From the IMG/VR virus record IMGVR_UViG_3300025736_000054, positions 1-44,227 of that record: DNA of 44,227 bases; one strand, written 5' to 3'. A program made the position numbers and the translations under genes. Positions 1 to 28,220 of this stretch are shown here, piece after piece (positions within the stretch are counted from its first letter, which is position 1; each line of letters opens with the position of its first letter). The notes beneath the pieces were generated by a model. It saw only the letters and a list, made by a program, of their open reading frames with translations, did no database searches and was not told the origin of the DNA. The stretch comes from a virus.

Positions 1-250
1 ACTTTAACTGATCTGGATGTGTTCCCATCATACATCTACTACACTTTGGACGATCCTTGATCTCTTCTGGAAACGGACTTTGTAAAATTTCATAATGTCC
101 ACATGCCATTTCGTAAACATCTACATAATTATATGGGAAAAAATCTAATCCTTCTTCGACGTAAATCTTCAATAGCTTTTGATACTCTCTCTTCTCTTCA
201 CCTTCAGTATTTCTAATTCTTCTCTGAACATTCTCTATCGATTTTCTCAT
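1..250 (-). CDS. Hypothetical protein, C-terminus outside window
   Basis: I do not recognise this gene. It runs off the low-coordinate edge, so only about 83 codons are visible. Two ATGs (256 and 250) follow an AGGAGG at 259-264. The ATG at 250 has the better spacing (8 nt), so I chose it. The visible protein is charged at the N-terminus (RKSIENVQRRIRNTEGEEKR). It then carries CGHY and CSRC about 30 residues apart, which could bind zinc. No TGA codon is seen in the visible part. It is the last gene of the window downstream of the fractured nrdJ. Confidence 0.6.
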   Translation of the reverse strand, partial: MRKSIENVQRRIRNTEGEEKREYQKLLKIYVEEGLDFFPYNYVDVYEMACGHYEILQSPFPEEIKDRPKCSRCMMGTHPDQLK

Positions 251-258
251 TTTCATAA

Positions 259-264
259 CCTCCT
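259..264 (-). promoter_or_regulatory. Strong Shine-Dalgarno AGGAGG
   Basis: AGGAGG lies 8 nt before the ATG at 250. Most genes in the window have no such perfect site, so this one stands out and decides the start of the gene that ends at the window edge. The 45 bases upstream are AT-rich (TTTTTATAAATTACC, then TATATTATG) and could hold a promoter, but I cannot assign one firmly. Confidence 0.6.
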
Positions 265-309
265 TTTATCCTACATACATAATATAAGGTAATTTATAAA
301 AATAGTAAC

Positions 310-402
310 TTAAAATTTCCCGGCGATTTTACTATCATAAACAGCCTGAGCTCAAGCTTCAATATAATCATCATATTGGTGTTTAACTTTAAATTTACAC
401 AT
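310..402 (-). CDS. Small ORF, 30 residues
   Basis: This short frame starts with an ATG that overlaps the stop of the upstream 72-residue gene (ATGTGTAA) and ends in TAA. It reads MCKFKVKHQYDDYIEAW, then AQAVYDSKIAGKF. The TGA read as Trp is its 17th codon. The start/stop overlap is the same translational-coupling style as in neighbouring genes. That supports it as a real gene, although at this length chance is possible. No function can be suggested. Confidence 0.45.
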
Positions 403-613
403 CTTGTCTATAGTATTCTTTTATTCTTTTTTGCTCTTGCATAAGTTCTTTTCTTATCTTTATAACTTTCTCTAATATTTCCTTTCCTACAACCTCTAAT
501 AATTCTGGACAATTTTCTTCAATAACTCTTTTGTATGCAACGGATTTAGTCCTTCATACTTCATTATGAAATTCTCATACTGCTTTATTGAATTCCCAAT
601 CTTCTTCATACAT
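395..613 (-). CDS. Hypothetical protein, 72 residues
   Basis: Not recognised. It is a short, highly charged, probably helical protein (begins MYEEDWEFNKAVWEF; the C-terminal half is rich in Lys, Arg and Glu). Two in-frame TGA codons fall in the repeated pattern AVWEFHNEVW, which supports reading them as Trp. It starts 22 nt after the stop of the last nrdJ piece and probably shares its transcript. The following 30-codon frame overlaps its stop. Confidence 0.6.
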
Positions 614-635
614 TTTATAGCTTTCTTCTTTTGTC

Positions 636-1616
636 TTATCCACAAGCGCTCCATCCACACTCAAGACACATTTTACATCCTTCTTGATATATGATATTTT
701 TTGTATTGCAAGCTTGACAAACTTCATTCTCTATCTTTGTTCCATCTTTAATAAACTTACTTAATAATTTTTTAACATGAAATAAAAATGATGAGAATCC
801 ATCTGGATTTTCTTCTAATATTCCTACTATTTCAAATGCTGGAACATTATGTCTTAGTGCTAATCCAATAGCTCTAGCTATCTTATTTACATTTGTTTGA
901 CCTGAATATTTACTACGTTGTCTTTCAATTAATTCTTCTTTAATACCTTTATTTCTACATAAAGATTCCATATCTTCTATTACTTTACCTGCAACTTCAG
1001 TCGACTCATAAGAGTTTGTATGTACAAACATGGCATAAGGTTTTTGATATTTGCTATCGGCGAATGCGATATTGATATACCACTTCTTCTTATTTTTATC
1101 TCTTCTTATGTATCCCTTAGAATAATATTCTTTTGGTAACTTAACATCTTCTTTAATTACATCGCCATTTGACTTAACAAACATTTCTTCAAGTTCAGAT
1201 TGATATTCATGAGTCTTTTGTTCTTCAAGTACTGCAGTCATTGTATTAGCTCTATATGTAGTTAAGCCTTTAATTTCACTTCTCCAAGCAGTTAAATAGA
1301 GCTCTTTGAAATCATCATAACTATAATGCTCAGGAATGTTTACCGTATTATGAGTTGGAACTCCATTTACTCAATATGAGTGAGACATATCATCTATTTC
1401 TAAATCACCTGTATCAACATCACTAATTAGCTCTATTTTAATAATCTTTTTTGACTCTGGCATAATTAACGAGCGCAGATTAAAAAGATGCTCGTTTGTT
1501 ACTTCATTTCAGTTTAGATGTTTTAAGTCTATTTTTATTTCATCAAGCGTTTTTATTTGTCTATAGTCTAGCGGAATCTTTTTATTGTTCTGACTAATTG
1601 ATTCTAAAATATTCAT
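636..1616 (-). CDS. nrdJ: NrdJ piece 4: intein C-half plus C-terminal part of class II ribonucleotide reductase
   Basis: 326 residues. The first ~90 residues are an intein C-half that ends SHSYWVNGVPTHN (Asn codon 1347-1349). The extein follows directly with TVNIPEHYSYDDFKELYLTAW, which continues the SSK-TVNIP motif of NrdJ. The C-terminus carries C-x2-C and C-x2-C pairs (VCQACN and CKMCLECGWSAC), the cysteine tail used in class II enzymes for re-reduction. Two TGA codons (KHLNW, SYWVN) read as Trp. The ATG at 1616 overlaps the stop of the endonuclease gene at 1594-1596. Predicted role: the last quarter of the reductase, joined in trans to the piece ending at 2827. Confidence 0.85.
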
Positions 1617-2769
1617 AAAATTTCTCCTTATTAAATATTATCTCTTCTGTTATGATAAAAAAATTACTATGTAATTCTTTTATATATCTACCTTTTTCTT
1701 CATTAAATCTTTCTAAAAATATCTTTGGCTTTATTTCTAAAATAAATTGCTCTTCACTAGTTGTTGTAAATATTATATCAGGAACATAACATTTTTTCTT
1801 TTTTTTATCTGTCTCAAAAGTCATATGATACGGCTCTGTCTCAAAGCATGTAACTTTTTCATTTAATTCTAATAATTGTAGAACTTGCAATTCGTAGCTG
1901 CTTCTATAATAAATATCTTTATTGTTTTTTTCACTGAAAAAGTATCCTGTTCTAACTGCGTGTATATTATATCCTCTGTTATATCTCTCAGGATGATTTG
2001 CAATATAATTTGCACTTCTTATACTTATATAAGCCGAATATCACATTTTTGTCTCTTGCGGAGTCATATTCTTTACATCCACTACACTAAACTCCGGAAA
2101 ACTTGACTTAATGGTGTTTCTAACTTTTAAATTAAGCATATTACTTTGTTTCCATTTTAATATATACTTTTCTTTCTCTTCTACAGACTTGAGTCTGTAG
2201 TTTGTTTTTTTAGAATATCCAGATAGCGAAATTAAATCTTGTTTTGATAACTTACTAGTATCAAGTCCTAGTTTTATTGCTATATTTTTTCCTGTGGTCG
2301 CTACTCCATCAACGTATGACAAGTGCAACAGTCTAGCATCATCATGTATTAGTGGATATTTTTTTTTTGCAATACGTATTCTTGATTTATGCGCATTAAC
2401 TATCATTGTATTAGCTAAACCAGGATCACCCTCTCACTTATCTTTTTTTTCTGTAATCATCTTGTGTGATAGACTCTTATTATATCTATTAAAAAAAGCA
2501 TAATATTCCTCTGTATTTATCTTATCAATTTCTTTTTTGTTTGCTAATCAAATTGACACCTCTCACTTATGCTTTTGCTTAGTATTAATATAATTTTGCT
2601 TTAAGAGATTTATTAGCTTCTGCTCTTGATAGAAACTTACTATGCTGTGATCTCTTTTTATAATATTTGCTAATGCTAATATTACTTGCTTATTAACACC
2701 TCTATTATATAATTGTTTTAAGTAGATATTATTATCATCACTCAATGTTTTAAATTTTCTAAATCTCAT
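1594..2769 (-). CDS. Homing endonuclease, PD-(D/E)XK type, between intein halves
   Basis: 391 residues. The C-terminal domain shows YYRSSYELQVLQLL, then CYVPDIIF and EEQFILEIKPK. This is the E...PD...ExK layout of the PD-(D/E)XK fold (TnsA/Vsr-like nucleases). The N-terminal half is basic and helical (TIIKRDHS.. to LSKQDLISLSGYSKKTNYR) and may bind DNA. At least four TGA codons read as Trp. I chose the ATG at 2769, which has GAGAGG close upstream; a TTG at 2808 is possible. It sits exactly between the two halves of intein 3, as expected for a homing endonuclease gene of a split-intein locus. The exact fold assignment is inference from motif spacing. Confidence 0.7.
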
Positions 2770-2791
2770 AAAACCTCTCTTTATCTTTATA

Positions 2792-2799
2792 TATAAATA
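2792..2799 (-). promoter_or_regulatory. Putative promoter element TATTTATA before endonuclease gene
   Basis: On the coding strand this reads CATATTTATATATAAAG, 23 nt before the ATG at 2769. The same 8-mer occurs, in the same orientation, in several other gene gaps of the window (see separate entries). Its repeated placement upstream of genes suggests a promoter, but no transcript data exist. Confidence 0.4.
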
Positions 2800-2826
2800 T
2801 GAAGACAACAGGGCTTTTACAAATAT

Positions 2827-3720
2827 TTATTTCCGTATTACTATATTTTGATCAATCTTTGTATCAATTAACTTTACTCAATGTGAGTTCTCAACAAATA
2901 TTTTATGATTTAGTGTTCCAATTATTGTCGAATTATCACTAAAACTAATCTTTATACATTTAGAATCTATCTTATTGTTATATGTAGATTTTATTTCAAC
3001 TTTATTATTAATATGATTTTTAGTATAAAGTTTATCAGACTCTATAGACTTAAATTCACCACTATTATTAAACTCAAGCTCACTTAAATACACAACCTCG
3101 TCATTTATAATAATCATACTTGAAGACTTTTCAACACACTTACTAGAATTCATGTTCGTATAGTGAGCAATTATTTTCAGCACACTTAAATGATTTTCAA
3201 CTGATAAATCAACTGTAGTTGAAAAAACATCCTCATCCTTATTTAAAAGTGTCCAGGTTATATCTTCATCAGAAAATATATTTGCTTTTACTCAACTCCA
3301 ACCATAGTCTTCAACTAAATTTGCTTTGACCAAGCCTCTACTTTTATCAACTCTATAAGATTCTCCATTAAATTCGCCTTCTAATATTTGTTCATTTGCG
3401 ATAGTTATGAATTTAAGATTTTCTGTTTCAAACCATTCACTCTTCATTACATCTGGAATTATAAATTCACTCTCTGCTAATGCTCTCTTTTCCTCGTCGG
3501 TAACAATAACTCATCTAGTATACTCTTTCATAAATACAGGTTCTATTCCACCTGACACAATGCCGGCAAATATTGAAGTGTTGTGTGAAATAATACCATT
3601 ACCTAATATATAGTGATGAGCATCTTCAACTTCTATATCATACGTATCATCTTTTATAAGCTTGATCTCTGTTACTACTTCTTCAATTAGCTCGAGTCCT
3701 TCTATATTAACTACACTCAT
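2827..3720 (-). CDS. nrdJ: NrdJ piece 3: intein C-half, central extein, intein N-half
   Basis: 297 residues in three blocks. Residues 1-47 are an intein C-half ending DIEVEDAHHYILGNGIISHN (Asn codon 3580-3582). The extein then reads TSIFAGIVSGGIEPVF, the phosphate-binding loop of NrdJ (usual NAPxGNTS...GGIEP), and runs to HYTNMNSSK. The third block is a new intein N-half starting with Cys at 3136-3138 (CVEKSSSMIIINDEVVYLSE). It contains the Hint block IIGTLNHKIF and ends in TAA. Three TGA codons read as Trp. The ATG at 3720 overlaps the endonuclease stop. Predicted: spliced in trans at both ends. Confidence 0.85.
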
Positions 3721-4711
3721 TATTTTCTCCTTCTATAAATTTTTTACATTTTATTAGCACTTTTTCTTTATTATCTCTTCATTCTTTTTCTCAGACGACT
3801 AATGTATCAAATCCGCTATTATTTGCAACCCTTAATTTATATCTATCTTTGTCTCAAAGTCTTTTTGCATCAGTTTTTAATATCGGATGTTTTCAATCTG
3901 ATTCAAATAATAGCGGATTTGCATGTCAAAAATCTCCATTAAACTCTATAATTTTTTTATTTCCTGATTTTATTAATGTAAAGTCAAAAAATAAATATGA
4001 TTTCTTGTTTCTATCATATATTCATCATTCTTTATTTTTTTTTGCATATTTTATATATTTATGAAAGTCATCATGTAACATATCTAAAAGAGAATCACAA
4101 AAACTTTGTGATACTTCTGAAACAGACGTTTTACTAGCACTAGATGATTTTTTTAATAACAGCTCTTTTCATTTTTGGGCACCGATTTCTTGTCCATATT
4201 TTTTAATTCACTTACTAAGTGTTGCTGCATGAAGCTGTTTATTTTTGTTATTTTTATGATGTTTTGATATACTAATTGATTGTTTCTTATTTTTAGAATT
4301 TCATTTTTCCATACCAATCTTTTTACCATATTTGTTAATAAAGTAATCCATATCTCGTCTTTGATAATCTGCATATTGTTTTCTTGCTAAATCATAATCT
4401 CCATCACATATCTTTAGTCAATACGCAAATGCCCTTTTTGTTGTTTCTCTTTTAGTTTGTATATATTCATCTCATCTCTTCTCGCCTGCAATTTTACCAA
4501 GTTGCATAATATATTTTTCTTTTGTATGTTTAGATTTATTTCTAAATATATCATATTTTATTATACCTTCTGGTTCACCATATCTTCTAATAAATCCATC
4601 TAAACTTTGATCAACCTTTAATAAGTATTCTTGCCACAAATTATCTGCGACTTCTTTTGAATTTTCCTCATATATTCTAGTTTTATAAGTTTTATATTTT
4701 CTTTTTGTCAT
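3707..4711 (-). CDS. Homing endonuclease, Vsr-like EDxHD type, between intein halves
   Basis: 334 residues. The catalytic region reads KKIIEFNGDFWHANPLLF, followed by W-D-K-D-R. This is the E...N/D-G-D-x-W-H pattern of the Vsr-like EDxHD endonucleases described with split inteins in 'fractured genes'. The N-terminal part holds short repeats of the form KYGxxIGxxKW, probably DNA-binding modules. About eleven TGA codons are read as Trp, including the Trp of D-F-W-H. It lies exactly between the halves of intein 2. Its SD (AGGAG) is inside the hairpin at 4714-4770. Its end overlaps the start of the next nrdJ piece (AATGAGTG). Confidence 0.85.
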
Positions 4712-4713
4712 TT

Positions 4714-4770
4714 AAAATTGCTCCTACATTACTTTATTATAAATATAAATATCAATGTAGGAGCAATTTT
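4714..4770 (-). promoter_or_regulatory. 17-bp inverted repeat hiding an RBS, with promoter-like loop
   Basis: Perfect 17-bp arms (4714-4730 and 4754-4770; AATTGCTCCTACATT pairs with AATGTAGGAGCAATT) flank a 23-nt loop. The loop contains two overlapping TATTTATA copies and a TATAAT on the coding strand. The AGGAG that serves the ATG at 4711 lies in the downstream arm. Read-through mRNA should fold and block translation. A transcript started from the loop would lack the upstream arm and free the RBS. This is the known T4 I-TevI logic; here it is inferred from sequence. Confidence 0.65.
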
Positions 4771-4776
4771 ATTTAA

Positions 4777-5613
4777 TTATTTTTTTATCAAAATCTTATC
4801 GCCAACTTTTAAATCTTGTAACTCAATTCATTTTGCTCGAGTATCACTTATCTTAACTAAAAGCTTATGTTCACTTGTGCCATCAATTTTATTGTTCATA
4901 TCTGTTTTTATTGAATATACGTTTCTATTATCATTAATATATAATCCTGTAATTCTCTTATTACCTTGTAGTGTAGGAACTTCCAAAGTTTTAATTGGAA
5001 TAAATGATTGGTTCTTTTTTTCTTTTGTAATATCTATTTTATTTTCTTTAAAAATTTGAGAAATAGACTTTACACCTTCTGCTGTTCTTATTTTTGTATT
5101 CTTTCTAACGCAATTCCCATTTGGAGCATTTGCTGAATGACAGCTATTTCTCATTGTTCCAACTGATTCAACTAACGACTTCACTTCTTCTGATATATCA
5201 ATATTCTTTCACCAATAAGTATTAAAATATTCCTTACTATCAAATAACTCAAATGAACCTTTTTCTTCACCAAGCATTGCTGAAGCGAGTAATTCCACCC
5301 CGGCTTTTATTTTGTATATGTCTCTAACCATATCTAATGACTCCGGAGAGCCATATCTAATACCCATCATATAATGTAATGATCCTAATCCCATGGTACC
5401 TAATCCAATTCGTCTCTTCTTAAGCATTGATTCTTTATATTCAGGCAATGGTACATTTGAAATATCATTAATATTATCTAGAAATCTTACAGCAGTTATA
5501 ATTGTATTAATAAACTTTGCAAAATCAAATGATCCATTATCATAAAACTTAACAAGATTTATACTTCCTAAATTGCATACGCCAGTTGACATGAGAATTT
5601 CTCCTAACCGCAA
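4777..5613 (-). CDS. nrdJ: NrdJ piece 2: extein with GEILMSTG motif plus intein N-half
   Basis: The extein reads GEILMSTGVCNLGSINL and runs to MRNSCHSANAPNGN. At Cys codon 5110-5112 an intein N-half begins (CVRKNTKIRTAEGVKSISQ), with Hint block GTSEHKLLV, and ends DLKVGDKILIKK then TAA. Two TGA codons read as Trp (YWWKN, AKWIEL). The start is uncertain. In this frame only a TTG at 5613 precedes the extein, while the ATG at 5693 that overlaps the endonuclease stop, as at the other two junctions, is in another frame and meets TAG at 5604-5606. See the leader entry. Frame upstream of 5613 is closed by TAG at about 5650. Confidence 0.75.
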
Positions 5614-5693
5614 TCGACGTTGAGTGTCGACTGCATATAATAATCCTCCTTTCTATGTGTTATTTTTGGTTTTGAAATATTATTAACTTTCAT
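5599..5693 (-). other. Leader ORF with hairpin and possible recoding site before NrdJ piece 2
   Basis: An ATG at 5693 overlaps the GIY-YIG stop and opens a 29-codon frame ending ...NVDCG then TAG (5604-5606). A second ATG at 5634 has AAAGGAGG 8 nt upstream in the same frame. An 8-bp hairpin (5611-5633, arms CAGTCGAC and GTCGATTG with one G-U, loop ACTCAAC) ends just before TGC-GGT-TAG. If peptidyl-tRNA-Gly moved from GGT (5607-5609) to GGA (5602-5604), the product would read Cys-Gly-Glu-Ile, the expected NrdJ active-site sequence. A simple -1 shift would give Cys-Gly-Leu-Gly-Glu instead. An assembly error or a decayed junction is also possible. Confidence 0.45.
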
Positions 5694-6612
5694 TTGCTTT
5701 TATTAGCTCCTTTTTAAAATTTTCAATTGTTTCAAAATTCTTCAATATTGATTTTATTGAAAATTGTATATTTTTTGCATTAAATTTTTTCTTTAAATCT
5801 AGCACTTTCTCATTATTGTTACTTTTTAATAAAGAAATAAAATAATTAATATCAATATTATTTCTTTTTATGAAATTAATTGGAATAAATTTTATTCCTT
5901 CTTTAACTGATTTTCCGTGCTCCTTTCTTTTGCTTTCTGTTCATCTCTTTTTCTGAGAGGCTGATTGTTTTTTTATATACAACTCTCAACTCTCTTTATC
6001 TTCTTTCCGACTTTTCATTGCTATCTTCGATCTCTCTGAGTGAGCATCTTTTTCTTCTTCTGTTCTATTATTATAAAATTTAATTAAAGCAAATTTAGTT
6101 TTATCTCTGTTTCTTATGCTGCTATAGTATTTCTTCATAGTAATAGAGTGTTTTGGATTTTTAACTCCAAGCTTTTTTCTTGAAAGACCTTCTCTGTTCT
6201 CGCTATTTTGAAAATATGCTATTCTAATATTGCTCATTTTTTTAATAGCTGAAGACGAGTGTTTTTTTCCATACATTCCGTTATTTTTTCCAACCCTTTC
6301 GCATTTTAAGCACCGCTCTTTATAGTCTGGCGAACTCGTAATTGTGTCACCGCCGTCCCCGCCAGCTGTAATATTATATCCGATATTGCGGTTTTGAGAA
6401 TTAAGTTTTTTAATTCAATATCTTTCTGCTTTGTTCAACTCTTTAGAGCTTAAACATTCACAAAGCGTTTCTTTTTTAAAATTTTCTATTCCGTATTTAT
6501 TGATAGCAAGATTTAATATCTTACCGGAGCCGAGGTAATTATTATTATTTTTAGAATCTTTGCCAACATAAATTTTACCATTAATTAAGTTTGTGGTTTT
6601 ATAAATTATCAT
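5683..6612 (-). CDS. GIY-YIG homing endonuclease
   Basis: 309 residues. The N-terminal GIY-YIG domain shows IIYKTTNLINGKIYVGK, then a conserved Glu region and RYWIKKLNS, followed by GYNITAGGDGGDT. This is typical of the phage Seg / I-TevI / NUMOD class. The C-terminal part is basic, with NUMOD-like repeats (NNGMYGKKHS.., ..KNPKHS) that bind DNA in relatives. Three TGA codons read as Trp, including RYWIKKL. It lies between NrdJ pieces 1 and 2, so it is the mobile partner of the first interruption. The ATG at 6612 follows AAGGAAAATTAAAT. Confidence 0.85.
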
Positions 6613-6676
6613 ATTTAATTTTCCTTAGTACACTCATTAGATATTTTAATGTCTATTGGAGCCTGTACTCTTTTAT

Positions 6677-6684
6677 TATAAATA
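6677..6684 (-). promoter_or_regulatory. Putative promoter element TATTTATA before GIY-YIG gene
   Basis: The coding strand reads CTATATTTATAATAAAAGAG, with an embedded TATAAT, 65 nt before the ATG at 6612. The element lies just after the stop of NrdJ piece 1 (6705). A partial hairpin (AGTACA...TGTACT) lies between it and the gene. It matches the elements at 2792, 4738/4744, 28620, 35103 and 42662. Confidence 0.4.
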
Positions 6685-6704
6685 TAGTAACTCAATTATT
6701 TTAT

Positions 6705-8204
6705 TTAATAAATTTCATCGTTTTCATCTAAATCTATAGCAAATTTTTGTTGTCCATTGTCAACATCTACTACATCATATATGTAAAATCTTTCTATGTT
6801 ATTTACCAAAACAGGCTCCGTGACTATATATTCGTCGCGATTTATTAAACTAAAAAAGTTATAATTTGGAACAGCTGTTAAATCATATACATCTTCCTTC
6901 TTTTCGGTCTTTTCTATTCTAACAATTGCTTTTAGTTTCCCATCAGCACCATTAACAGACGGAAGCGTTGTTGTTTTACCAGCTTTGTACTGGTCATATA
7001 TATTACCAACACACAACTCATTGAACGACTTTCCATATAGTTTATGTTTGTAGTTAGTTAGAATATATTCATTATTTTCAAAGCAAACTTTATATATTTC
7101 ATCATCCTTTTGAGTCATCCACACTCTCTTTAACTCTGAATTATACAGTTTTTTGTCTTTATCTATTGTTATAATAGTTAAATTCTTAATCTTATTTTTC
7201 TGCTTTTCTAAGTTTTTAATTTTAATTCACCCAACGTTAGTGAAGACAAGAGTATCTCCTACTACACAGGGATTTGAAGTAGCTATATTTTCACAATAGT
7301 TAACAGGATTCAACTTGTTTGCTAAATCAAGAAATAAAACTCCAGGTTCGTTTCTGGTATAAGTTGCAGTCATTATCTTATCTCAGAGATCTTTAACTTT
7401 AATTGTCTGATAATTAACTCTCGGATAACCTTTATTGATCCATTTTTGATAATCTCCCTTTCATTCTGTTTTATATTGAGGACAGGAAGTATCTGGAAAT
7501 GATAATGTTCAGAGTATCTCTCCGCGACCAGCATCGTCAATAACAGCTTTAATAAACTCTGCATTAATTCCTACCGATAAGTTAAATTTAGTTAATCTAT
7601 TAGGAGTTTGTTTAGCTTCTATAAAATCAATAATGTCAGGATGCCAGACTTCTAGAATACCCATCTGTGCTCCTTTTCTTATCTTCTTTTTTTCTTTTCC
7701 CTCATTACCATCTTTAAGTACTTTAGTCGTACCAGAAGTAATAATTTCAGAAGACTTATCTCATAGCTCCATAAATTTTAATACACCAGGAGTTCTTATT
7801 CCGGTTCCTTTAACATAAGTCCCCTCTGGACGAAGTCAGCTGAAATTCATTCCATATCCACCTTCCGATGCTAATGTTTTTGCTTGTGCTTTTAGTAGAG
7901 TATAAATTCCATTTATTGAATCTGGATCTGAAAAATTATCTAAATCTTGAGGCGAATGTGCAAAGCAATTCATTAATGTTGTCTCTTTTTTATCAGGTGC
8001 TCCAATGTTTGCCATTATTCTTCCGCCTGGCACAAAATTCCAATCTTCTAAAATATCATAAAATTTGTCTCTTCACATATCAGGCTGTGTTTCTACTGCA
8101 GAAGCGGCAGTTGCTATTCGTAATCAAGTATCTTCAATAGCATTATCTATACTAAGTTTATAATTCTGCTCTCATATTGTCTTTTGAAATTCATTTGTAA
8201 ACAT
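6705..8204 (-). CDS. nrdJ: NrdJ piece 1: N-terminal class II ribonucleotide reductase plus Hint/intein domain
   Basis: 499 residues. The extein (first ~312) has class II / NrdJ hallmarks: FVPGGRIMANIG, MNCFA, EGGYGMNFSW, RKGAQMGILEVWHPDI, ending ENIATSNP just before the catalytic Cys. The Hint domain begins at Cys codon 7266-7268 (CVVGDTLVFTNVGW). It has a block-B-like NYKHKLY and a terminal-block-like DVYDLTAVPNYNFFSL, then VLVNN and a 27-residue tail. No extein follows it. The terminal His-Asn is Asn-Asn, so how it splices to piece 2 is unclear. About nine TGA codons are read as Trp. The ATG at 8204 overlaps the helicase gene's stop region. Role: deoxyribonucleotide synthesis for phage DNA. 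Confidence 0.85.
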
Positions 8205-8211
8205 ATAAAAA

Positions 8212-9582
8212 TTACTCTTTTTCCTTTTCTTTGTTCATATTACCCAATTTCTGAGCAATCAATCTTCTTACATATTCGTTACCATTACCTTGTTTTTTCG
8301 ATTCTTCTAGATCACCTCTAGTGCCTACATCGTAAATAGATATTGCACCATTATTAGCATTAAAGCTGGCTTTAAATGTCATACCATCTGCGCCAAATCT
8401 ATTCTTAATAATATGTATTCTACTAGTACCTGCTAACTTATCTTCAATTTTTCTTGATATTGACATAACGAAATCTGCAGTCATTACTTTTTTATAAGAA
8501 TCTGCAATATTCTCTGCAACTATTACATCTTGTTCTTGTGCACTTCTATTACTTTGACTTCCAGTTCAACCAGGTTTTCCAATTAGTGTTAAGAAACCAC
8601 GCATTTCTTCATATATTCTACCACCTATATGATAACTACTTTGCATATGCTTTGATAAGGTAGTAGTTAGAAGATCGCCATAATCAATAATAATAAGATC
8701 TGGTTCAAAACCTAATGACTTTAAAAGATTATAATGAGCTTCTAATGTTGCAACAGTTGCGATAGTAGCTGGATATTGCTTAACAATTAGTAATTTCCCA
8801 TATTGATCAACCAACTCCTTTACTTCATCTTTATGATATTTTAATTCTTTAAAAGGATATCCTGATATTATACTATCATATCTCAATCCTACATAATTTT
8901 CACTAAGTTCAAGAGTATAGTGTAATACTTTCTTTCCCGCTTTTACTGCTGCCGCTCCCAGATATGCTAAGAACCATGATTTTCCAGAACCAGGACCGCC
9001 TACTATTACTCCAAGTTCACCAGCACCAATGCCGCCAGATAGTAAATCATCAATTACTGGTCAAGATGTTAGTACACATTTTCTAAGAGATTCATTATAT
9101 CTATCTTCGAAATCTTCGAAATAGTCATGACCAATATCTCTTTCTACTCCAGCATTACTAGCTTCATTAATAACGTGTCTTATTTCTTCATAATTTTCAT
9201 CTTGAAGAAGCTCTATAGAATCTAACAATGCTTTTTTGAGTACTTGATTCTTTAAAAAAGCAAGAGTTTTGCTTTTAACATAACTTAGATCGCTAGATTT
9301 AAAGTGCTTATTTATATCTTGTATATGTCTTAAGACGTCAGTTTTTAGTTCTTGAGACTCAATATTCGATAACTCCATTTTTATTACATCGAATGTTATA
9401 GTATCTTTGTACTCCGCATAATAATCAAGTGATTGATTTGCTAATCATTTAGCAGCATCTGATGTAAAATATTGAGATCGAATAATATCAGCAGTTTGCT
9501 TAATAAATGGCTTATCAGATATTAGCGTAACTAATAGCTTTATCTGAAAGTCATATCCATATGTACCTAAATTATTTGACAT
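8212..9582 (-). CDS. Replicative DNA helicase, DnaB/gp41 family
   Basis: 456 residues. A helical N-terminal domain is followed by a RecA-like SF4 core: TSWPVIDDLLSGG, Walker A VGGPGSGKSW near residue 196, HYTLELSE, Walker B DLIIIDYGDLL, and the GWTGSQSNRSA segment. This matches T4 gp41-type hexameric helicases. Three TGA codons are Trp, including the conserved T-x-W-P-V-I. It would unwind the fork ahead of the polymerase and load primase. The ATG at 9582 overlaps the stop of the exonuclease gene. No separate primase gene is seen in the window. Confidence 0.88.
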
Positions 9583-10660
9583 TCTTACCGCCTATTTCAT
9601 CATTAAAAGAAGTAGCACGATAATTAAGTCTAGAGAAACAATCATCCATCCAAGCCATTGGATTTCTAATACCAGAAGTTGCTCTATCTTCTATTAGCAT
9701 TTTTTGTATTTTAAACTTGTTTAGTTGATTAATATGAGTGCTAGTAACTAATTCTTTAATCTTTAGAGCATCTTTTTCTTCTACTCTTATTTCACCGAGA
9801 GACATTAATTTGTAATTTCTCTTTATAATACTTTCAAAGTTTTCTAAAAATTTTCCTATGTTATTTTCTACTGCATATTCATATATGTTATCCAAATTCC
9901 ATTTCACAGTTTCATCTAAAAGTATCGGAATCTTTTTAAGTATTGTTTTTATACCTCATCTTGGTACACCAGGAATATTATCAGAATTATCACCATCAAT
10001 AGCTCTAAGTAAAGATATATGATGCGCTGGCACTCCAAAGACATCTTGTACATTCTTTTTATCATATAAAATTTTCTTTATAGGAGAAAAAACCTTAATG
10101 TTATCTGTTTCGCATAATTGTAAAAAGTCTTTGTCCATAGATAATATAATATGATTAGTAGTATCATCAAAAATTTGTGTTGTAATATACCATATAATAT
10201 CATCAGCTTCATAACCATTAACCATTACTGTTGTTATAGGTAAAAAAGACAAATATTCAAATAATCTTGCTAGCTCCATTTTCATTATTTTCTCTTCCAT
10301 TTCTGCTGAACTATAATAAAACTTTCGATTATAAACATCTGCTTCTTTTCTCATTTTTCGTTGAGCTTTATAGCCCTCAAATATTTCTTTTCTTTTCTTA
10401 ATACTATCTACACCATCAGTAACAATAATAACTCGAGTAGGACTAAATCGCTTAATTACATATCCTAGAGAAGTTAACGAACCGGTAATTCCTCCAATAT
10501 GTACTCCATCATCATTAGTTGCAGGATTAGCAGCATATGCTCTAATAAATAGATTTAATAAGTCAACTACTAATATTCTAGAATTTGGACCTAACTTTAT
10601 ATCATTTGCGTGATTTTCAGATATTTTCTTTAGAATACTATTAATATTAACTAAAGACAC
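9572..10660 (-). CDS. 5'-3' exonuclease / flap endonuclease (RNase H-like)
   Basis: 362 residues, GTG start at 10660 overlapping the upstream stop. The order of motifs fits the FEN/T4 RNase H family: RILVVDLLNLFIRAY, IIVTDGVDS, GYEADDIIWYI, ILSMDKDFLQL and DGDNSDNIPGV, followed by PRWGIKTI (helix-hairpin-helix start, Trp from TGA at 9954-9956). The acidic residues that bind the two metals are all present. It removes RNA primers of Okazaki fragments and sits in the replication block between the DUF5662-like gene and the helicase. Confidence 0.88.
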
Positions 10661-27350: not shown

Positions 27351-28220
27351 TTATTTCATTATTTCTTCTTCTATTAACTTGTTTTTACTTATGTAATCAT
27401 CTAAATCAGATTCATATATTCTTATTAACTCATAACCAAGTTGTTTTATATTTTTATTTCTTTTACTATCTCTTTCTCATATTTCTTTAGCAGTTAATTT
27501 AATTTTAGAATGATAATAATTTGCACTAAATTTTTTAGGGTTGCAGTGTCAGTAGTCACCATCTATTTCTATTATTAAATTATACTTTGGAAGAAAAAAG
27601 TCAGTAGATATATAGCCATCGTTTACTTTTATTTGTTTTTGCTGTTTAAATAGCAACTTTTGCTTTTGTAAATATTTTTTAAACATCAATTCTAAGTTTG
27701 AATTTTTTCAATTTGGATGAGAATTTGTTCCGCCTTTAGAACAGCCTAATCTAAAAGCTATACCTTCTTTAGTGTTATTACTGATTGATTTTGATTTATA
27801 TTGTGAATAGCACTCTTTTGTGCAAAAGAACTGACTCTTATATGTCACCTTGACATGGAAAATATTTCCGCAATTCTTACAGATTTTCTCTATTAAACCT
27901 TGATTTCTTGGATTGCTTCATTTCCCGCTCTCATCGTATCTTTTTTTATAAATATCCTGTCATCATGCCTTACTCTCAATTGGCAAGATATATGCACTCT
28001 CTCTGAGTCGTGTATTATGACCTGAAATAAATTCTCTAAATTTTCCAAACGATACAAAGGTTGATTTGCCGGCGCAGCCACACTTACAAGTTGGTATTGT
28101 ATTATTATAAAAGTATTTTATTGTATATTCTCTTGATGAAATATCTTTGTGCTTCCGCGCTATATGAACTGCTAGTGCTCTTTTTGACTTAAATTCTTTA
28201 TTACAGATTTTACAAATCAC
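27351..28220 (-). CDS. Free-standing homing endonuclease, zinc finger plus Vsr-like EDxHD domain
   Basis: 289 residues, GTG start at 28220 with AGGAGA just upstream. The N-terminus is a C2H2-like finger (CKICNKEFKSKRALAVHIAR). A second Cys cluster follows (CKNCGNIF...FFCTKECYSQYK). The C-terminal nuclease has FLPKYNLIIEIDGDYWHCNP and later KEIWERDSKRNKNIKQLGY. This is the E-x-D-G-D-Y-W-H...D pattern of Vsr-like homing endonucleases. Six TGA codons are Trp, including the W of Y-W-H. It stands between neck genes and the sheath gene, where T4 has its terminase genes. Confidence 0.85.

Follow-up and report, generated by a model that had tools for sequence, protein, structure and literature searches.

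A class II ribonucleotide reductase gene in four pieces in a TGA-recoded, T4-like phage, probably broken by successive homing-element insertions

Fractured genes in which the halves of a split intein lie on separate open reading frames (ORFs) were reportedly described by Dassa et al. in 2009 (NAR) from marine metagenomes, at gp41, NrdA, NrdJ, and IMPDH loci. In gene 60 of phage T4, a Gly codon precedes the stop codon that is bypassed. This bypass, in a gene that a homing endonuclease gene (HEG) interrupts, occurs with the stop codon in the A site and a stem-loop on the 5' side; short hops over stop codons have been made artificially, and short-distance bypassing in nature has long been presumed but is hardly documented (PMC5009743). 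In Aeromonas phage Aeh1, the HEG mobE splits nrdA near the catalytic Cys, and the NrdA enzyme, with tails charged +6 and −9, is fully active (PMC2988022). Here we analyzed the IMG/VR virus record IMGVR_UViG_3300025736_000054 over its 44,227 nucleotides (nt; hereafter the window), in which a single class II ribonucleotide reductase (RNR) gene, nrdJ, is spread over four ORFs on the minus strand between positions 8204 and 636, with a nuclease ORF in every gap. These pieces probably encode a working enzyme of a T4-like phage that reads TGA as Trp, and three homing-element insertions in succession probably broke the gene.

With TGA read as Trp, the nrdJ ORFs occupied positions 8204–6705 (P1), 5636–4777 (P2, with a frame break at 5606), 3720–2827 (P3), and 1616–636 (P4). 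PF02867 was matched by P1 (5.6e-41) and P2, and phrog_84 by P1, P2, and P4. The barrel domain, thiyl Cys, NxCGE motif, and redox Cys of class II RNRs were all present, with the frame break in P2 leaving the Cys-Gly of NxCGE in the leader. Placed end to end, the four pieces were colinear with intact nrdJ relatives (55–61% identity): no codon was lost between P2 and P3 (junction 2) or between P3 and P4 (junction 3), and one codon, Cys, was absent between P1 and P2 (junction 1). Nine of the 11 TGA codons in the pieces stood at columns wholly or mostly Trp in the intact relatives; the phage uses genetic code 4. At all three junctions the start of the downstream ORF overlapped the end of the nuclease gene and was preceded by a good Shine-Dalgarno (SD) sequence. 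The single nrdJ in four ORFs, the recoding of TGA, and the nuclease in each gap had all been proposed in a first-pass annotation made from the letters of the window, and all were borne out. The same annotation had counted three nuclease folds; EDxHD/Vsr enzymes are a branch of the PD-(D/E)XK fold, so that the three families of nuclease amount to only two folds.

The fracture is not an assembly error, because the pieces abut in intact relatives and two independent IMG/VR contigs agree with the window (five mismatches in 14,014 nt, or 99.96% identity, for one and two in 10,939 nt, or 99.98%, for the other, with no gaps and an identical junction-1 sequence). The same break at junction 1 was also present in a diverged relative, L028, and a sequencing or assembly error at junction 1 of the window was ruled out. 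L028 is the closest relative (71–78% identical; dS 1.1–1.7) and has sites 2 and 3 intact. The ratios of nonsynonymous to synonymous divergence (dN/dS) between the two were 0.08 for P2, 0.25 for P3, 0.07 for P4, and 0.16 for the GIY-YIG gene of the first gap. Since the C-terminal part shows a low ratio between two lineages that both carry the break, purifying selection has held during their divergence, which argues for function of nrdJ. A further contig, G001, overlapped the window by 1904 nt at 100% identity, bringing the known portion of the phage to ~108 kb; neither a second RNR large subunit nor any small subunit was found in it, nor an intact nrdJ, which the first-pass annotation had named, together with lack of expression of the pieces, as evidence against its reading.

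Table. Features of the fractured nrdJ locus in the window
Feature	Positions	Strand	Evidence
P1, NrdJ N-terminal part and first barrel part, ending ...ENIATSNP before the catalytic Cys	7269–8204	minus	PF00317 and PF02867; 55–61% identity to intact nrdJ
Int1, complete mini-intein without homing endonuclease, CVVGDT...VYDLTAVPNYNFF...EPVLVNN; degenerate C-junction	6798–7268	minus	NCBIfam intein_Nterm 2.1e-7; PF14890; aligns to end of complete inteins
Acidic tail IERFYIYDVVDVDNGQQKFAIDLDENDEIY, 30 residues, net charge −7, with P1 stop	6705–6797	minus	Sequence, charge count
GIY-YIG homing-endonuclease-like ORF with NUMOD3, gap 1	5683–6612	minus	phrog_314 homing endonuclease 2.4e-33; PF01541 0.0022; PF07460 5.9e-4; 72% identical ORF at same place in L028
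Conserved element: overlaps GIY-YIG stop, SD AAGGAGG, ATG 5636, hairpin, ends TGC-GGT-TAG; codes MKVNNISKPKITHRKEDYYMQSTLNVD, then CG and stop	5604–5693	minus	Comparison with L028; folding
P2, NrdJ GEILMSTGVCNLG...NAPNGN (barrel, GEILMST onward), frame offset 5 nt from leader	5113–5604	minus	PF02867 3.2e-34
Int2 N-half (CVRKNTK...KILIKK, then stop), fused to P2	4777–5112	minus	NCBIfam intein_Nterm 3.9e-8; 72% identical in L041/L042
EDxHD (Vsr-like) endonuclease ORF, gap 2, 12 TGA codons	3707–4711	minus	phrog_22677 1.3e-23; matches VSR-annotated Aeromonas phage ORFs
Int2 C-half (MSVVNIE...GIISHN/T), start overlaps nuclease stop	3580–3720	minus	NCBIfam intein_Cterm 1.6e-9; 74–77% identical in L041/L042
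P3, NrdJ part TSIFAG...NMNSSK	3139–3579	minus	Alignment with intact relatives
Int3 N-half (CVEKSSS...QNIVIRK, then stop), fused to P3	2827–3138	minus	PF14890; NCBIfam intein_Nterm 0.004, below cut-off
PD-(D/E)XK-like nuclease ORF, gap 3; ATG 2769 also possible start	1594–2808	minus	Motif PD...ExK (CYVPDIIF...LEIKPK); hit to phrog_218 'head closure' (8e-11) in the C-terminal domain
Int3 C-half (MNILES...GVPTHN/T), start overlaps nuclease stop	1347–1616	minus	Aligns to Int2 C-half, E = 1.5e-4
P4, NrdJ C-terminal part TVNIPEH...LECGWSACG	636–1346	minus	phrog_84 7.1e-12; 81% identity to L028, dN/dS 0.07

Junctions 2 (NAPNGN/T) and 3 (NSSK/T) each have the sequence anatomy of a clean split intein, with Cys1 opening the N-half and His-Asn closing the C-half before Thr (GIISHN/T and GVPTHN/T; a slash marks the junction), as the first-pass annotation had read them. 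The family search that it proposed for the halves recovered both parts of Int2; the Int3 N-half stayed below the cut-off and its C-half gave no match to NCBIfam intein_Cterm. Two relatives, L041 and L042, carry the triple of N-half, nuclease, and C-half at the point of junction 2, the halves being 72–77% and the nuclease ORF 55–56% identical. The accepted interpretation of an arrangement like this is trans-splicing, which is to be expected at both junctions, since each piece bears a matching intein half with the nuclease gene between. The protein would be rejoined through attack by Cys1, the +1 Thr, and a cyclizing Asn, as the anatomy of the halves suggests. Another free-standing Vsr/EDxHD-like endonuclease, with a C2H2-like finger, lies between structural genes at positions 27351–28220.

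The fracture is real. The split-intein reading fits these two junctions, whereas the third and more interesting one is a break of another kind. Junction 1 had been counted with the other two. An alignment of Int1 with complete inteins ruled out a clean split intein there: blocks A, B, F, and G all lie on P1, so that a whole mini-intein precedes the gap and no intein is divided between two ORFs. The end of Int1, DVYDLTAVPNYNFFSLINRDEYIVTEPVLVNN, matched the ends of complete inteins inserted at this same catalytic Cys, namely ...SSGIFIHN/CGEIL in L041 and ...SEGILVHN/CLEI in the NrdA inteins of Salmonella phage maane and Dickeya phage LIMEstone1. Its C-junction is altered at three places, with Tyr for the block F His, Asn for the penultimate His, and Ile for the +1 Cys (NN/I). 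The 27-residue leader of P2 gave no recognized intein match in NCBIfam, and sequence searches of the PDB returned at most weak matches to inteins. At positions 6612–6704, immediately ahead of the start of the GIY-YIG gene, a possible hairpin (AGTACA...TGTACT, found by eye) resembles the hairpins that sequester the ribosome-binding site (RBS) of T4 homing genes. Free-standing relatives of the GIY-YIG gene (L120, 1976–2722; L121, 1960–2706) occur immediately downstream of a class II-like RNR that is intact (NPCCEI).

Past the GIY-YIG gene, an ORF that overlaps its stop has a strong SD sequence before ATG 5636 and encodes MQSTLNVD-C-G before ending at UAG; GEILMST, with which nrdJ continues, is shifted by 5 nt from the frame of this leader. 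From ATG 5693 to the TAG (90 nt), the window and L028 differed at five positions in four codons, all nonsynonymous, and at none of 16 synonymous sites; at the flanking divergence this has a probability of ~1e-4 to 1e-7 (post hoc test). No other part of the aligned region was as conserved as this element, which had an exact run of 38 nt and folded as a hairpin of 9–10 bp ending directly before GGU-UAG (−16.3 kcal/mol, z −3.8). The lack of synonymous change beside a dS of 1.1–1.7 implies constraint on the nucleotides, beyond that on the peptide alone, and hence an element constrained as nucleic acid. A repeated element at other loci was rejected: its 19-nt core was found only in records of the window and its relatives and in L093, an unrelated chance match, and in none of the genome contigs.

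These features suggest the following history for junction 1, the older break. A mini-intein would first have sat before the catalytic Cys, and the GIY-YIG gene would then have entered at its C-junction, after which the end of Int1 may have decayed and gained the acidic tail. The rest of the enzyme would be re-initiated from the RBS inside the conserved element, giving Cys-Gly and then UAG, with reading resumed at GAA-AUU-CUN in another frame. The N- and C-terminal parts may then be spliced in trans or held non-covalently as in Aeh1 NrdA.

The likeliest way across junction 1, although still a doubtful one, is a short ribosomal hop of GGU over UAG. Translation would start at ATG 5636, and the Gly-tRNA would stall on GGU with UAG in the A site and hop to GGA, yielding ...NVD-C-G-E-I-L-M. 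Such a hop fits the stem-loop immediately 5' of GGU-UAG, the nucleotide-level constraint, the precedent of T4 gene 60, and the documented short stop-hops; GGU-UA-GGA gives back CGEIL exactly in the window, the EIL codons are retained in both lineages, and the one Gly tRNA identified for the phage has the anticodon UCC. The nascent peptide, however, is merely 10–29 residues long, and the main objection comes from L028, which would need a 4-nt skip without a matching landing codon or a Gly codon in register. Slightly more tentatively still, junction 1 may represent a second phage programmed bypass tied to an HEG-split gene, in which a hairpin, Gly-UAG, and a hop of 4–5 nt place Cys-Gly before the Glu-Ile-Leu of an RNR otherwise rejoined by two split inteins.

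An unlikely alternative is a two-chain enzyme of the Aeh1 kind, in which the leader-CG peptide would serve as a regulator or be made as a by-product, the C-terminal part would start by coupling at AUG 5592 (MSTGVC), and P1 would assemble with it without splicing. An AUG 10–11 nt past the UAG occurs in both the window and L028, and the charges of the P1 tail (−7) and P2 leader (+2) recall the opposite tails of Aeh1 NrdA. This start would nevertheless discard Glu-Ile-Leu, including the catalytic Glu established for the NxCxE motif of RNRs, although those codons are retained. Less likely again is a decaying gene with a dead enzyme. The frame break in the catalytic loop and the degenerate Int1 would suit it, and the nrdA of a Campylobacter phage shows comparable decay (PMC3653736). 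Every other frame is open, however, and dN/dS is 0.07–0.25 at a dS above 1 in two lineages that share the break. The least probable reading is that an intron holding both the GIY-YIG gene and Int1 is removed from the mRNA, so that TGT(G) becomes joined to GAGAAATT, since a group I or II intron was rejected for want of any Rfam match even at E ≤ 1 in positions 1–10000, Int1 is intein-coding sequence, and the 3' boundary shifts by 1 nt between the window and L028, although group I introns often host GIY-YIG enzymes and the 3' flank is conserved with a stable hairpin.

Several observations weigh against our account of a working enzyme whose gene was broken by successive insertions. The offset at junction 1 in L028 is 4 nt (GGT TAG C GAA), so that a single fixed hop cannot serve both lineages. 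The Int3 halves score weakly against the NCBIfam intein models. The AlphaFold models of Int1 and of the gap-3 nuclease had pLDDT (predicted local distance difference test) values of 38 and 40, respectively; both were uninformative and were not used. Finally, the negative result for another RNR covers the ~108-kb known portion of a genome whose completeness is not established.

Among 33 relatives surveyed, nrdJ was an intein hotspot, with insertions near amino acids 81, 186, 195, 225, 312, 477, and 624. Relatives with the standard code had cis inteins only (three each in L058 and L062), and fractured nrdJ occurred only in TGA-recoded members, namely the window, L028, L041, and L042, small numbers that may represent one clade. 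L041 has three nrdJ fractures and one cis intein, and L042 has two and one; multiple fracture thus belongs to the group and not to the window alone, and three breaks in one enzyme are less exceptional than first supposed. Because L028 has the break at site 1 with sites 2 and 3 intact, parsimony places the break at site 1 before those at sites 2 and 3, which arose in the lineage of the window. A further fracture in L041 (positions 3236–4742; amino acids ~222–231) has an N-side tail resembling an intein fragment without Cys1 (KITIKLNDGSVYYVKPNEEIEVDGEVILAKDFKI), followed by a Vsr-like nuclease; no complete intein was seen, and the fracture resembles junction 1.

Among ~25 tRNAs on contig G001, one has a CUA anticodon for UAG (L111, 2376–2450, minus strand). 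Reading of the junction UAG by this tRNA was considered and dropped: the frame after the UAG is not nrdJ and UAG ends 6 of the 31 long ORFs of the window, so the join would be left unexplained. In each contig, one in five long ORFs still has UAG as its terminal stop. The Trp tRNA found (L110, 15908–15982, minus strand) has the anticodon CCA, not UCA, despite the use of TGA for Trp; its D-arm seems to have A24, as in the Hirsh UGA suppressor. The TGA:TGG ratio in ORFs was 133:52 in the window and 45:75 in G001 (a rough count with overlapping ORFs).

Together, these data suggest that one essential phage enzyme tolerates fracture by three stacked homing elements, in two or more different ways, with other combinations at other sites in L041 and L042. 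The window offers matched natural split-intein pairs for tandem trans-splicing, and junction 1, conserved at the nucleotide level across two lineages, makes natural short-distance bypassing testable.

Compared with known systems, junctions 2 and 3 share the sequence-level features of fractured genes with split inteins: a split at a conserved point, intein halves on separate ORFs, and a nuclease in the gap, which at junction 2 is likewise of the EDxHD type. Unlike those loci, the window combines two such fractures with a third, different break in one enzyme, its TGA is recoded, and its junction-3 nuclease is of the PD-(D/E)XK type with a gp4-like domain. Junction 1 resembles both the Aeh1 genes-in-pieces and gene 60 and is at most a candidate member of either class. 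As in the nrdA-a/mobE/nrdA-b arrangement, an HEG interrupts an RNR within its active-site loop, in the catalytic-Cys region, the tails are oppositely charged, the downstream start overlaps the HEG end, and the pieces are under selection. In Aeh1, the break follows NLCIEIALPT, the frame is clean, and the enzyme is of the HNH type, whereas junction 1 breaks before the Cys, after an intein, and with a frame break. With gene 60, next to mobA, it shares an HEG-split gene, the putative take-off features of a Gly codon followed by UAG (GGU-UAG) and a 5' hairpin, and out-of-frame resumption; the gap is 4–5 nt instead of 50 and the nascent peptide would be short. A possible landing codon (GGA) occurs in the window and none in L028. 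Int1, for its part, shares its insertion point at the catalytic Cys and its homologous end (VYDLTVDDNHNFF...ILVHN/C) with the NrdA intein of phages maane and LIMEstone1; that cis intein carries a long insert separating its splicing blocks, whereas Int1 is a mini-intein ending NN/I.

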